Of a stretch of DNA of 64,000 bases, positions 1 to 5,032 are shown one piece after another. The position numbers and the translations under genes are program-made. Below the pieces are notes generated by a model. The model was not told where the DNA came from. It ran no database searches and saw nothing but the letters and a program-made list of their open reading frames with translations. The DNA comes from an uncultured Chlorobiaceae bacterium (lineage in GTDB: Bacteria > Bacteroidota > Chlorobiia > Chlorobiales > Chlorobiaceae), in NCBI GenBank assembly GCA_903869365.1, contig CAIPYV010000114.1, positions 1 to 64,000 on the forward strand, read 5' to 3'. How positions within the stretch are numbered: position 1 is the first letter of the stretch; each line of letters begins with the position of its first letter.

Positions 1-2105
1 AGCTACGGCTGATTACCGATCCAGGTTTGCGAGAGTATATTGAACGGACTTTTGATTTTAACGAAAAAGACTTCGGGCGAAAACTCTACCTGATACAAAA
101 CTGCATTTATGGCGTTGATATTCAGCCAATAGCTGTTCAGATAGCAAAGCTGCGCTTCTTTATTTCGTTGATAGTGGATCAGCGAATACATCCTGACCAG
201 GATAATCTTGGGATTCTTCCGCTGCCCAATATGGAGACCAAGTTCGTTGCCGCCAATACACTGATAGGGCTGGAAGAACCAAAGCAACTTGTTTTTCAAG
301 AACCGGCTATTGAAATCAAGGTAAATGAGCTTGATTCTGTTCGGCGTAAATATTTCACTGCCAATAATCAGATTGCGAAGCAGAAGTGCATTCTTGATGA
401 TGAAAAGCTTCGCAAAGAGATCGGAGAACTGCTAAAGCGTGGCCAATGGAATCCAACTACAGCCGATAAAATTGCCGCATGGAACCCTTACGATACTACG
501 AAGAGTTCTGATTTTTTCAATCCAAAGTGGATGTTTGGTGTGGCGGATGGTTTTGATATTTGCATTGGTAATCCACCATATCTGAGAGTGCAGGGATTGC
601 AGCAAACACAACCCGAATTTATTTCATACTATCGCGAAAAATATAAATCTGCACAGGGCAGTTTTGATATATATGCCCTTTTTGTAGAACAAGGGTATAG
701 TTTGCTTACTGCCCGTGGGCAATTGGTTTACATTCTTCCACATAAATTTTTTCAGGCTTCATTTGGAGTGGGACTTCGGAGATTGCTTACCAGTAGAAAA
801 GCAGTTCGCCAGGTTGTTCGATTCGGCTCAGAGCAGGTATTTGAAGAAGCGACGACCTACACCTGCCTCCTGTTTTTATCCGCAACTCAACAAAAGCAAT
901 TTGATTTGCTTGAAGTCAAAAGCCTCACCAGCGGTTCGGAGGTTCTTGATGCCGCAAGTAATCGTCTATCTCATGTGGACTACTCTATCGAGGTACTTCC
1001 TGCACCAGAGGATACTAATTGGGACTTTGGAATTGGTGATGCGAACAAGGTACTGAAACGATTATATCAACATGATAAAACATTAAATGATATCACTCGG
1101 AAGATTTTTGTTGGTTTACAAACCAGTGCTGATAAAATCTATGTTCTGCCGGTAGTTAATGAGCAATCGGATACTCTAACATGCTATTCCAAACATCTTG
1201 ATGAAGAAATAGAGATTGAGAGGGGTTTAGTAAAACCGTTTCTGATGGGTAAAGATGTTCATCGGTATGAACCGCCAAAACCTGCAAACGTTGTAATATT
1301 TCCATATCACAGTGTAGATGGTCGGATGGTTTTAATGGATCAGCCTGAGATTAAAAAACGTTTTCCTCTTGGTTGGAAGTATCTCAAAAGAAACGAAGAT
1401 GCTCTCGGTGAACGCGAAGGAGGTCGTATGCATGGTGAGAATTTTTATGCATATATCTACCCGAAAAATCTTGCGGAATTTGAGTTCACTAAAATCATGA
1501 CTCCCGAGATAGCTCTTGGCTGCCAGATGTCTCTCGACAAAGAAGGAGTTTATTACCACACGACCAAAGTGTATAGTTTTATTTTTAAACCCGAAGTAAA
1601 AGGGAGTACAAAATATTTCCTTGGACTCCTTAACTCTAAAGTTCTATGGTTTTTCTTGACCCAGACAGGATATGTACTACGTGGAGGCTATTATACCTTT
1701 AAGACAGATTATCTGAAGCCATTCCCTATTCCAGATTCTTCTATCACACAGCAAAAAGTTATCGAGACGTTTGTTGATTATCTTCTTTATTTAAAAGCAT
1801 TACCAGCCGCTAAAATCGTCAATTCAAGCCGTCATCCCCTTATTATCTCTTTCTTCGAGCAATTGATTGATGGGGTCGTTTATGAGTTGTATTTCCCGGA
1901 ATCATTCAAAGATGCTGAAGTCAACCTCAGTGAGCTGCTGATTAAAGAGAATCTACAATCTATCGAACAATGTAATGATGATGTAGTCACGTCAATATGC
2001 AATTTATTTGAACGTATCTACATACCTGAGCATCCAGTCCGAAAAAGCTTGTTTTTCCTTGATACTATTGAAGCCGTTCGAGTGGTAGAGGAGCATGCCA
2101 AATGA
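1..2105 (+). CDS. Eco57I-type DNA methyltransferase (5' end outside window)
   Basis: Probable N6-adenine DNA methylase of a restriction-modification or related defence system. The catalytic motif NPPY is encoded at 570-581 (context IGNPPYLRV). The upstream YGVDIQPIAVQIAKLRFF segment is typical of the SAM-binding fold of Eco57I-class enzymes. The C-terminal part, with an aromatic-rich region near 1600-1740, fits a target-recognition domain. The frame stays open to base 3 of the window, and the first start-like codon (TTG at 27) lies inside the conserved fold, so the gene begins upstream. The stop overlaps the next start in ATGA, which implies translational coupling to the ATPase gene. Whether cleavage activity is fused at the missing N-terminus cannot be seen. 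Class assignment is confident; substrate is unknown. Confidence 0.88.
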   Translation, partial: LRLITDPGLREYIERTFDFNEKDFGRKLYLIQNCIYGVDIQPIAVQIAKLRFFISLIVDQRIHPDQDNLGILPLPNMETKFVAANTLIGLEEPKQLVFQEPAIEIKVNELDSVRRKYFTANNQIAKQKCILDDEKLRKEIGELLKRGQWNPTTADKIAAWNPYDTTKSSDFFNPKWMFGVADGFDICIGNPPYLRVQGLQQTQPEFISYYREKYKSAQGSFDIYALFVEQGYSLLTARGQLVYILPHKFFQASFGVGLRRLLTSRKAVRQVVRFGSEQVFEEATTYTCLLFLSATQQKQFDLLEVKSLTSGSEVLDAASNRLSHVDYSIEVLPAPEDTNWDFGIGDANKVLKRLYQHDKTLNDITRKIFVGLQTSADKIYVLPVVNEQSDTLTCYSKHLDEEIEIERGLVKPFLMGKDVHRYEPPKPANVVIFPYHSVDGRMVLMDQPEIKKRFPLGWKYLKRNEDALGEREGGRMHGENFYAYIYPKNLAEFEFTKIMTPEIALGCQMSLDKEGVYYHTTKVYSFIFKPEVKGSTKYFLGLLNSKVLWFFLTQTGYVLRGGYYTFKTDYLKPFPIPDSSITQQKVIETFVDYLLYLKALPAAKIVNSSRHPLIISFFEQLIDGVVYELYFPESFKDAEVNLSELLIKENLQSIEQCNDDVVTSICNLFERIYIPEHPVRKSLFFLDTIEAVRVVEEHAK

Positions 2106-3094
2106 AAATAAGCAAAATAACAATCAAGGATTTTCGCGGTTTTCCTGGTGAATATGAATTTATATTGGGAGAACCCGGAAAAAACCTGCTTATCTATGGC
2201 GAAAACGGTTCAGGAAAATCTTCATTGTTCCTTGCCATCAAGCATTTCCTCGAAGCCAGCAGGGAAAAACTGGACATCACTCAATTCCAAAACATTTTCG
2301 TGGAAAATGGTGAGCCAACGGTTAAGCTTGATATCATGGCGTTCGATGCTAACGGTGATCGAGTTGAGGGCAGTCAAACCTATGAATGGGTAGCAGATGC
2401 TTCGCCTTATGGGCAATCAATGATTGAAGAAACGGCAAAAACCCGAGGTTGCCTCGATTACAAGGATTTACTTGCAACACATTATGTTCATCTCCATTCT
2501 GGTGAGGTGGACCTTTTCTCCCTTTTGATCAACTCTTTGATCGCGCACTCGCCGAATCCTATTAGCAACAAACCTTTTGATGAGGAGTGGGCCAATATCA
2601 ACAACTCGGTTTCAAACAGACTGACAGTTCGAGAAAAAGAAGACCTGAACCGCCGTATAGAAATATTCAACAACGGCATTGCGGCTCTACTCCCTGATTT
2701 ATGCCTGAAAACAAATGAAATCCTTGACTTTTTCAATCAAACGATCACTGTCGATCTCAAAGTCCAAACTATTGCGGATTTTATCACAAAGCCAAAGCAG
2801 TTGGTTGAACCCAGGATCTACCTGAAAGTCCACTATGCAGGGCAGCCTATCGAAGCCCATCACCGTTTTCTTAATGAAGCCCGTCTCTCAGCAATTGCAC
2901 TCTCAATCTATTTCGCCTCACTATTGATGAATCCGGCCAGCCGGCTCAGGGTAATTGTTCTGGATGATGTCCTGATCGGAATTGATATGTCCAACAGGAT
3001 GCCAGTGCTTGATCTCTTGAAAAAACGCTTTAATGACTGGCAAATAATCATCCTCACTCATGATCGTACATGGTTTGACATAATCATGTTTTAG
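2102..3094 (+). CDS. SMC/RecF-like AAA ATPase, N-terminal part of an interrupted gene
   Basis: P-loop ATPase of the RecF/SMC type. Walker A is GENGSGKS at residues 33-40. An ABC-signature-like segment (NEARLSAIAL) lies near 258, Walker B (VIVLDD) at 284-289 and an H-loop-like LTHD at 318-321. It has no long coiled coil, so it is a compact member. The frame ends at a TAG (3092-3094) just after the H-loop, where related proteins continue. The next 152 codons in the same frame are open and look like the missing C-terminal domain (see 3095-3553). The start overlaps the methylase stop by four bases. Probable role: NTP-driven partner of the methylase in DNA defence. The truncated product keeps all visible ATPase motifs and could still be made. 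Confidence 0.82.
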   Translation: MKISKITIKDFRGFPGEYEFILGEPGKNLLIYGENGSGKSSLFLAIKHFLEASREKLDITQFQNIFVENGEPTVKLDIMAFDANGDRVEGSQTYEWVADASPYGQSMIEETAKTRGCLDYKDLLATHYVHLHSGEVDLFSLLINSLIAHSPNPISNKPFDEEWANINNSVSNRLTVREKEDLNRRIEIFNNGIAALLPDLCLKTNEILDFFNQTITVDLKVQTIADFITKPKQLVEPRIYLKVHYAGQPIEAHHRFLNEARLSAIALSIYFASLLMNPASRLRVIVLDDVLIGIDMSNRMPVLDLLKKRFNDWQIIILTHDRTWFDIIMF

Positions 3095-3553
3095 ACCCAG
3101 GAAGTTGACTGGTGTTATTATGAAGTCTATGCCAACAAAGATAGTGAGCAAGGTTATGACAGACCTGTGCATCGAATGTTGTTGCAAGACGGAAAGTTAG
3201 AATTGCTTACTCGAGCAAAAAATCATCTATCAAATAATGATGAACGAGCTGCAGCAGTTTACTCCCGTGCCGCATTTGAATATTGGGTAAAATCTTTTTG
3301 CCATAAAAAAAACATCCCAGTCCCATTCACACTGGATAATACTCATCCTGAGATCAACGGACTCTGGGAGGCCATCAAAAAACGATTGGTCGAAAAAGGA
3401 ACACTTGTTCAGTACCAAGGGAAAATAGCAGATCTTGAAACCTTCCGAAAAATTGTCCTTAATCCATGGAGTCATGGAGCAGGCGCACATGTCGTGAAAG
3501 CTGAGGTACAAGGTGCAATTGCTGCAGTCGAAGCATTGTTTAGCATGAAATAA
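3095..3553 (+). pseudogene. C-terminal helical domain of the interrupted ATPase gene
   Basis: This is the in-frame continuation of the ATPase gene after the TAG at 3092-3094, with 152 sense codons and a normal stop. The first codons after the TAG (TQEVDWCYYEVYA) read as ordinary coding sequence and precede the first usable starts (GTG at 3167, ATG at 3176). That argues for one original gene of about 483 codons with a single nonsense change, not two genes. The domain is alpha-helical. It contains an ERAAAVYSRAAFEYWVKSFC helix and a NPWSHG segment, loosely like HEPN or DUF4145-type domains; this similarity is by eye only. It could still be expressed from 3167 or 3176 as a separate 120-130 aa polypeptide. 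Confidence 0.7.
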
Positions 3554-3563
3554 AGAAACAGCT

Positions 3564-3968
3564 ATGAACTACTGGCTCATCAAAAACCCGCCAAAGCGCC
3601 TGACGTGGAGCAAGTTTATCGCCACTGGATTCTATCGTTTCTACGGCATTCGCAATCGACAGGCCAGAAATTATCTTATGGCAATGCAACCTGGTGATTT
3701 GGTAATGTACTATCAGAGTCAGGTTGAACAATCCGTGCGGGGTATTGCTCGGGTTATTGCAGAGCCTTACCCTGATCCATCATCTATTGATCTGCAGTGG
3801 ATTGCTGTCGATCTGGAACCGGTATCAACATTTCAGTTACCGATAACGTTGGCTCAACTTCGTAGTGAGCCCTCTTTGTCGGAACTTTTGTTATTTCGTC
3901 AACCAAGACTATCGGTTATGCCTCTTTCTGAACATCAGTACCAGGAAATTACAGGGTTAAATTCATGA
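3564..3968 (+). CDS. EVE domain-containing protein
   Basis: A 134-residue protein consisting of one EVE (PUA-like) domain. The N-terminus MNYWLIKNPPKRLTW, the QARNYLMAMQPGDLVMYYQS segment, the GIARVIAEPYPDP strand and the late RQPRLSVMPLS motif match the family closely. EVE domains bind modified bases in DNA or RNA and often occur beside restriction or modification genes. Here the gene starts 10 bases after the interrupted ATPase gene and runs in the same direction, so it probably belongs to the same operon. A role as a reader of the methylase product or of phage base modifications is inference. Family assignment is strong; ligand is unknown. Confidence 0.88.
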   Translation: MNYWLIKNPPKRLTWSKFIATGFYRFYGIRNRQARNYLMAMQPGDLVMYYQSQVEQSVRGIARVIAEPYPDPSSIDLQWIAVDLEPVSTFQLPITLAQLRSEPSLSELLLFRQPRLSVMPLSEHQYQEITGLNS

Positions 3969-4072: not shown

Positions 4073-5032
4073 TTATTGCTGAACTCGATAAAACAGAAGC
4101 CCATTCCCGAAAGATCCATCTTCCTCAACCCTCTCCCTCCACTCAACCCTCAGCCTGTTTCTAAAAAAAGTCATCTGCCGTTTTGCATAATTGCGCGTAT
4201 GCTGCTTAATCAGCTCAACGGCAGTTGCATAGTCGATCAACCCGTCGAAGTATTGAAACAGCTCCTGATATCCCACCGATTGCAGCGCCGCTATCCTGTG
4301 GTGCTGAAGCATTGGCCGATACTTTTCATACAGCATTGCCGCCTCATCGCAAAGACCGGCCTCAAGCATCTCCTCGGTACGCTGGTTGATGCGTTTGTAG
4401 AGCCTTTCGCGGGGCATTGCAAGCCCTGTTGTGATAAAGGAGAGGCCGCTCTGTGCTTTTTTCCCCCGTGCCTGCAGCTCCGTAACGCTCATGCCGGTAA
4501 TCTCAATAATCTCAAGACTCCTGATCAGCCGCTGGCTCTTTGTGGGATCGAGGGTAGCTGCCTGCTGCGGGTCTCTTCGGAGCAGTTTTGCATACAGCCT
4601 TTCCTTTCCCTCCCGTTCAAGCTCCTCAAGCAGCCGTGCCCTTATCGCCTCGTTGGCCGGAGGGAGGTCAGCGAACCCCTCAAGCACTCCTTGAAGGTAG
4701 AGGGTAGAGCCTCCAGCAATGATGGCTTTTTTCCCTCTGCGGTGAATCTCGTGGATCCTCTCTATCGCTTCTACCGCAAAGTCGCCAGCAGTGAAGGGGT
4801 CGCCGATACTCTTTTCATTGATAAAATGGTGCTTCACCTCTCGAAGCGCCTCCTCTGAAGGCTTGGCCGCACCGATAGTGAGTTCACGGTAGATTTGGCG
4901 CGAATCAGCCGATATGATCTCAGCCCCACACTCTTTCGCCACCCTCAGCGCCAGAGCGGATTTGCCTGAAGCCGTCGGGCCCAGAATCACAAGCACCGGT
5001 TGTTCAGCAGATCCCTGATGCACGCTCACCAC
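4073..5032 (-). CDS. miaA: tRNA dimethylallyltransferase MiaA
   Basis: Transfers a dimethylallyl group from DMAPP to N6 of A37 in tRNAs that read UNN codons. The P-loop GPTASGKS is at residues 18-25, followed by the family motif SADSRQIYR near 40-46 and a GGSTLYLQG segment near 110. The length of about 319 aa is normal. The start is uncertain because three GTG codons are close together (5032, 5029, 5023). An AGGAGA at 5033-5038 gives best spacing to the one at 5023. The gene lies 16 bases downstream of maf in the same orientation and is convergent with the EVE gene. No terminator was seen in the 104-base convergent gap. Confidence 0.95.
   Translation of the reverse strand: MVSVHQGSAEQPVLVILGPTASGKSALALRVAKECGAEIISADSRQIYRELTIGAAKPSEEALREVKHHFINEKSIGDPFTAGDFAVEAIERIHEIHRRGKKAIIAGGSTLYLQGVLEGFADLPPANEAIRARLLEELEREGKERLYAKLLRRDPQQAATLDPTKSQRLIRSLEIIEITGMSVTELQARGKKAQSGLSFITTGLAMPRERLYKRINQRTEEMLEAGLCDEAAMLYEKYRPMLQHHRIAALQSVGYQELFQYFDGLIDYATAVELIKQHTRNYAKRQMTFFRNRLRVEWRERVEEDGSFGNGLLFYRVQQ

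Follow-up and report, generated by a model that had tools for sequence, protein, structure and literature searches.

The first 3,968 positions of a 64,000-nucleotide stretch of DNA from an uncultured Chlorobiaceae bacterium (positions 1 to 64,000 of contig CAIPYV010000114.1, assembly GCA_903869365.1; hereafter the window) carry genes for an Eco57I-type methylase, an SMC-like ATPase and an EVE-domain protein in close succession, and they raise the question of whether the three constitute a dedicated defence module in which, as the original prediction proposed, the methylase marks, the ATPase acts and the EVE protein reads. We favour a different answer, to which we give a rough probability of 0.58: the locus makes up the 3' half of a defence operon that is ATP-dependent and restriction-modification (R-M)-like, composed of an HKD-SNF2 helicase, an N6-methylase with a target recognition domain (TRD), and an SMC/RecF-like ATPase ending in a HEPN-like domain, a PrrC-like guard being attached and partly inactivated here, and the EVE gene being local cargo. 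The operon order, the motifs and folds, the stop codon, the absence of EVE co-occurrence and the co-variation of TRD and ATPase described below were all computed directly. The features at the start of the window are as follows.

3..2105, + strand: Eco57I-type N6-adenine methylase, C-terminal ~700 aa, with an NPPY motif and a TaqI_C-like TRD (Pfam PF07669, PF12950)
2102..3094, + strand: SMC/RecF/Rad50-like ATPase head, an open reading frame (ORF) of 330 aa with Walker A GENGSGKSS, Walker B LDD and a D-loop (Pfam SMC_N, PDB profiles, AlphaFold2/Foldseek)
3092..3094, + strand: in-frame TAG separating the ATPase head from its C-terminal domain (sequence and translation)
3095..3553, + strand: in-frame remnant coding for the HEPN-like C-terminal domain, R-x3-E ... 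N-P-x-S-H (alignment, AlphaFold2, Foldseek, weak Pfam HEPN)
3564..3968, + strand: standalone EVE-domain protein, 134 aa, intact frame (Pfam EVE E 2.8e-34; PDB relatives 2gbs, 2g2x, 1zce)
4073..5032, - strand: miaA-like gene bordering the island (ORF; synteny within the genus)

The three predicted protein families are present, with matches far above chance level (methylase: Eco57I E 3e-37 and TaqI_C E 2.7e-11; ATPase head: SMC_N E 1.9e-15), but three properties of the genes had been overlooked. Of the methylase only the C-terminal part is present: window base 1 coincides with base 1 of its contig (C114, 103 kb, in a genome of 2.93 Mb and 136 contigs), which leaves the 5' end open. The ATPase has a HEPN-like C-terminal domain, and its gene is not a single frame, a TAG standing between the head and this domain. 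The 4-base overlap noted earlier is the ATGA shared by the methylase stop and the ATPase start, and the 10-base gap in front of the EVE gene (3553 to 3564) applies only to a frame read through the TAG. Neither Rfam nor tRNA scanning produced a match in the window.

A conserved operon and its probable upstream half

Relatives were collected from 394 genomes of the phylum, from a wider genome-contig collection (80 loci found with an alignment query, a single-protein query having given no matches), and from plasmids and viral contigs, and were annotated with local profiles; operons were counted in a nearly non-redundant set of loci. A methylase or TRD gene lies upstream of the ATPase gene in 83 loci, with the exact 4-nt overlap in 47 of them, and the proposal that methylase and ATPase form a defence-like unit is therefore sustained. 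Where the partner gene is long and enough upstream sequence is available (64 testable loci), the order HKD-SNF2 helicase, Eco57I-type methylase with TaqI-like TRD, and ATPase, all on the same strand, is found in 43, the hosts including Nitrosospira, Acidobacteria, Planctomycetes, cyanobacteria, Bacteroidota, Chlorobiaceae and Gammaproteobacteria. The helicases of these relatives have an N-terminal PLD/HKD nuclease domain (Pfam PLDc_2) together with all SF2 motifs, and H121/K123 (HxK) and GSSN are near-invariant in the 42 full-length helicases. The upstream context is a nuclease-helicase gene and not a BREX or type I operon, nor, from what the L038 neighbourhood shows, probably a DISARM one.

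We searched the window genome with the methylase of a complete relative, and found one N-terminal half of the methylase, on contig C126 (4,624 bp; locus L058), and one C-terminal half, on C114. C126 holds the SNF2 helicase and then the methylase, which starts 4 nt past the helicase stop.

L058 (G000:C126) 1-2877: SNF2 helicase fragment, compared with L045 1491-4817
L058 2873-4624: methylase N-terminal half, stopping just past the DPACGSGAF motif

The helicase on C126 is 93% identical to that of the sister genome G330 (L045). Compared with the L045 methylase, percent identity per 50-aa block is 82, 48 and 46 on the C126 side of the junction and 74, 54, 36 and 42 on the C114 side; only within the TRD region does it drop, to 12-26%. 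Methylase columns conserved in 53-58 of 58 sequences lie on both sides of the junction. From these sequence comparisons we conclude that C126 and C114 are very probably neighbours, with C126 supplying the helicase and the methylase N-terminal half; our confidence in this is high but not full. A search of the rest of the window genome did not recover the beginning of the C126 helicase. Other contigs considered as the missing half were rejected: C98 and C47 lack a methylase of this family although they have HKD-SNF2-like helicases, and C79 and C94 carry PglZ. The genome has several further BREX-like and related defence loci on small contigs, namely C79 and C94 (PglZ), C92 (DUF499), and C98 and C47 (HKD-SNF2-like helicases).

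The operon resembles several known systems without coinciding with any of them. Type-2 BR systems (BREX-related, DUF499-centred, and relatives of Hma) likewise have an HKD-SNF2 primary nuclease, an N6-methylase and an ATPase in one operon (PMC12839542), and this helicase feature is present in our relatives, the window genome's copy being cut short of the HKD residues; the ATPase here, however, is SMC/RecF-like and not DUF499/CDC6-like, there is no DUF499 in the locus (the only DUF499 match of the genome is on C92), and DUF3780 was seen neither around L038 nor among the 25 commonest downstream families, its profile not having been run on all loci. PbeABCD and CxC ABC-ATPase-DndE systems also combine an HKD-SF2 helicase with an ABC-type ATPase and sometimes methylases (PMC10853773), but no DndE partner or small protein was seen here, there is no long zinc-hook coiled coil, the ATPase has a HEPN-like tail, and its PbeC matches are confined to the N-terminus. 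The ATPase matches the PADLOC mad3 profile of MADS (window E 9e-14; L038 E 1e-12 over nearly the whole model), but the other MADS genes were not seen and the mad3 model (374 aa) stops short of the C-terminal domain. Neither PglZ nor BrxC of BREX occurs in the locus, the genome's PglZ genes being on C79 and C94 and not on C114 or C126, and the PglX matches of the methylase fall far under the NCBIfam cut-offs. For DISARM, no DrmB or DrmC match was found in the neighbourhood of L038, and the helicase matches DrmD chiefly over the common helicase core. PADLOC labels the methylase REase_MTase_IIG, as for the Type IIG restriction-methylases; we dropped this label, since the 58 aligned methylases have no conserved N-terminal nuclease domain (no column is conserved at 90% before residue 226, and Pfam finds no nuclease domain there). 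In the literature compared we found no description of this ATPase with this set of partners, although a 2020 survey of ABC ATPases may mention the operon.

The EVE gene as probable local cargo

If EVE were a third component of the operon, it should recur beside the ATPase gene in relatives. Leaving out the window, 85 relatives have at least 1.5 kb of downstream sequence, and we searched all of their downstream ORFs of at least 80 aa with a local EVE profile, in addition to running Pfam on 112 downstream genes. In none of the 85 does an EVE gene adjoin the ATPase gene, and only one, in Pseudanabaena (L116), lies within 3 kb, 926 nt away and behind two opposite-strand ORFs. No EVE domain was found among the 25 commonest families of the 112 genes, outside which rarer reader domains could lie. 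Together these results rule out EVE as a conserved operon partner, and co-occurrence in other genomes extends to methylase and ATPase but not to EVE; the scheme of marking, acting and reading is therefore not the conserved logic of the system.

A dedicated module could nevertheless be imagined, with the EVE protein reading the methylase mark, or foreign modified bases, and directing the ATPase. The gene is on the same strand and only 10 nt downstream, its absence from the other 64 genomes of the genus searched (it occurs in 1/65) makes it probably island-borne, and a standalone EVE gene recurs in archaea beside a system of SNF2 nuclease, COG1743 methylase and DUF499 (Bell et al. 2020, PMC7641849). 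That system likewise combines a nuclease-helicase, a methylase and an ATPase in an operon and has a standalone EVE gene beside it, but its ATPase belongs to another family, and what is recurrent there is a single case in about 85 relatives here. The genes that follow the ATPase are moreover highly variable across relatives, and the closest EVE proteins, 45% identical, are encoded on the chromosomes of other bacteria of the phylum, away from the operon, and the flanks of their genes (~1.5 kb) contain neither a methylase or ATPase match nor a strong helicase match. We therefore consider a dedicated methylase-ATPase-EVE module improbable.

Within the phylum EVE is common: of 198 genomes sampled, 110 have it. 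Another conserved gene (~190-225 aa) comes after miaA in 16 of 29 sister loci (L180-L208), a place that in the window is taken by the defence island, and the EVE gene therefore probably arrived with the island. We conclude that it is probably local, island-specific cargo. It may have a separate defence role, by analogy with what Bell et al. 2020 (PMC7641849) propose for other EVE contexts. In three sister genomes a gene of ~1018 aa follows the operon (L038 12879-15935, L039 4459-7515 and L042 9046-12102); in L038 it encodes a UvrD-like helicase with ankyrin repeats.

The ATPase, its HEPN-like domain and the TAG codon

Residues 1-350 of the ATPase group with SMC, Rad50 and RecF heads, both in PDB profile matches and when an AlphaFold2 model is searched with Foldseek, and the modelled head is compact, having a single helix of ~36 residues and lacking a long coiled coil. 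The C-terminal ~125 residues are modelled as a five-helix bundle. When this domain was searched in isolation, the six best Foldseek matches were all of the HEPN family (top 1o3u, 2q00 and 2hsb), with probability 1.00 for the first four; the Pfam HEPN match of the remnant in the window is weak (E 0.0038). Across 48 aligned sequences R389, E393, N454 and H458 are invariant (window codons R 3266, E 3278, N 3461 and H 3473), the motif R-x3-E-x56..70-H is present in 48/48, and Ser precedes the His in 47/48.

A similar arrangement is known in RloC, where the motif R-x3-E-x36-52-H, often with Ser before His, is required for anticodon-nuclease activity, Ala at any of the three positions abolishing it (PMC2610378), and PrrC is an ABC-ATPase with a HEPN nuclease that is kept silent by a linked type I R-M system (PMC3710099). 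PrrC, with the EcoprrI type Ic R-M system, and RloC share with the operon an ABC/SMC-type ATPase head, a HEPN-type domain, the R-x3-E ... H triad with Ser before His, and a position beside R-M genes (PMC2610378, PMC3710099). They differ in that the R-M partner here is an HKD-SNF2 helicase with a methylase-TRD protein and not HsdMSR, in that the ATPase has no zinc-hook coiled coil and a longer E-H spacer, and in that RNA cleavage is only predicted. Because of the fold, the R-E-H triad and this precedent we call the ATPase PrrC-like in its possible mode of working.

Several observations weigh against this interpretation. The join of C126 and C114 is inferred rather than sequenced, and the helicase fragment on C126 begins just past the HKD residues, which are hence not visible in the window genome. 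The Foldseek E-values of the isolated C-terminal domain are weak (at least 0.2), the canonical HEPN motif Rx4-6H shows up as N-x3-H, and the E-H spacer of 56-70 residues exceeds the 36-52 of RloC. The link to PrrC and RloC consists of fold and motif alone: neither profile is among the PADLOC, NCBIfam and Pfam matches listed (the list of 22 for L045 is complete), and for this reason we do not file the ATPase as a member of either family.

The non-canonical HEPN motif also suits another explanation, in which the ATPase belongs to the core and handles DNA, as a loop-extruding or clamp-loading subunit in the manner of DUF499/BrxC or DndD/CxC, and the HEPN-like domain binds RNA or protein non-catalytically, so that there would be no guard RNase. 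The SMC-like head, the almost constant position of the ATPase gene right after the methylase, and kindred architectures that pair an HKD-SF2 helicase with a different core-subunit ATPase (PMC12839542, PMC10853773) are in keeping with this. We nonetheless think it unlikely, since the R, E and H that are invariant in 48/48 sequences are the same as the catalytic triad mutated in RloC, and since the ATPase also partners methylase-less TPR-TRD proteins (see below), which is unexpected for a pure R-M subunit.

We therefore retain the R-M operon with a PrrC-like guard, all activities and the guard logic of which we infer from the features above. The methylase would mark self DNA at sites chosen by the TRD, and the HKD-SNF2 protein would translocate along and cut unmarked DNA. 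The ATPase would dock on or near the TRD and keep the HEPN domain silent; with the TRD as its means of sensing DNA or the state of the complex, it would gate the HEPN RNase as a second line. Once the DNA-level defence is engaged or inhibited, the HEPN domain would be freed to cut RNA, tRNA being the natural guess by analogy with PrrC and RloC. The textbook suicide tRNA nuclease guarding a restriction enzyme is PrrC, which is bound up with type I systems. If a PrrC-like guard is wired via the TRD to another, widespread restriction operon, ATPase-gated RNase guarding would be a general strategy, and the operon would offer a simple setting in which to test the control of an RNase by a DNA recognition domain. 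The window itself has a more modest place, as a partly broken copy with an EVE gene that is probably outside the machine.

The break is the TAG at 3092-3094, which interrupts the full ATPase frame (2102-3553) at codon 331 and leaves the remainder as a separate in-frame piece downstream. TAG also terminates 5 of the 43 window frames of at least 250 codons; it is therefore a working stop codon here, and recoding is ruled out. Since the HEPN-like domain is encoded past the TAG, the predicted RNase arm has probably been lost in the window genome, and production of the methylase and of the ATPase head may continue. The homologous ATPase genes are uninterrupted in all but a few relatives. In the sister genome G141 (L042 7752-8846) the gene has a stop and an internal deletion, the helicase and methylase being intact there; it is truncated in the sister genome G197 (L039 7688-8305), and split in a gammaproteobacterial metagenome-assembled genome (L134 2169-3497). 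The damage in the window, G141 and G197 would fit the shedding of an arm that is costly, with a sequencing error as a further possibility in the window.

These breaks, and the position of the operon at a contig edge, are also what would be expected if the locus were a decaying remnant without present function and the TAG one step of pseudogenisation. This would be compatible with our interpretation, which concerns the intact family, but it seems rather unlikely: the frames of the methylase, whose motifs are present on both C126 and C114, and of EVE are unbroken, conservation persists in the residues encoded past the TAG, and the TAG could itself be a sequencing error. Given the intact frames and the retained residues, any decay is recent or partial.

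Co-variation of ATPase and TRD

We compared pairwise protein identities in 43 operons. Helicase and methylase core identities are closely correlated (0.83), whereas the ATPase correlates best with the TRD region (0.48; partial correlation 0.42 given helicase and methylase core, permutation p 0.0005, which is indicative only, as the permutation ignores tree structure); with the others held, its partial correlation with the helicase is 0.00. The operon thus consists of two sub-modules, the ATPase co-varying with the TRD and not with the helicase or methylase core. The window shows the same mosaic: the helicase, on C126, is 93% identical to that of L045, but the TRD and ATPase head are nearest to L068, L064 and L078. 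Between the two species of the genus compared here (L058 against L045 for the helicase), the neighbouring TRD and ATPase are only ~20-30% identical, against 93% for the helicase, indicating recent recombination of part of the operon.

The same ATPase-HEPN protein is found in ~28 loci of Poribacteria, Latescibacteria and Gemmatimonadetes, where it follows a TPR-TRD (TPR-TaqI_C) protein without methylase motifs. In three of these loci Pfam identifies the head of the partner.

L066 7308-11422: TIR-TPR-TRD and ATPase (Pfam TIR head)
L072 7089-11428: TIR-TPR-TRD and ATPase (Pfam TIR head)
L074 7347-11446: FRG-TPR-TRD and ATPase (Pfam FRG head)

From their sequences these TPR-TRD and ATPase-HEPN pairs are a candidate for an undescribed effector system. 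We tentatively suggest that TRD and SMC-like ATPase-HEPN may be a portable DNA-sensing unit serving varied effectors, these being a methylase and HKD-SNF2 nuclease in most phyla, including in the window, and TIR- or FRG-headed methylase-less TPR proteins in Poribacteria, Latescibacteria and Gemmatimonadetes; we hold this to be possible, if somewhat doubtful. Were it true, sequence-specific R-M recognition and abortive effectors of RNase or TIR type would share one sensor, and the TIR/FRG-TPR versions would tie R-M recognition domains to other types of effector. There are ~25 further TPR-TRD loci (L067-L104, L119), in which additional starts look TIR-like or FRG-like. In Nostoc and Calothrix, TRD-only proteins precede the ATPase, and two cyanobacterial loci (L032 8988-11434 and L092 8965-11449) pair the ATPase with a standalone TaqI_C protein of ~340-360 aa that lacks the methylase core.

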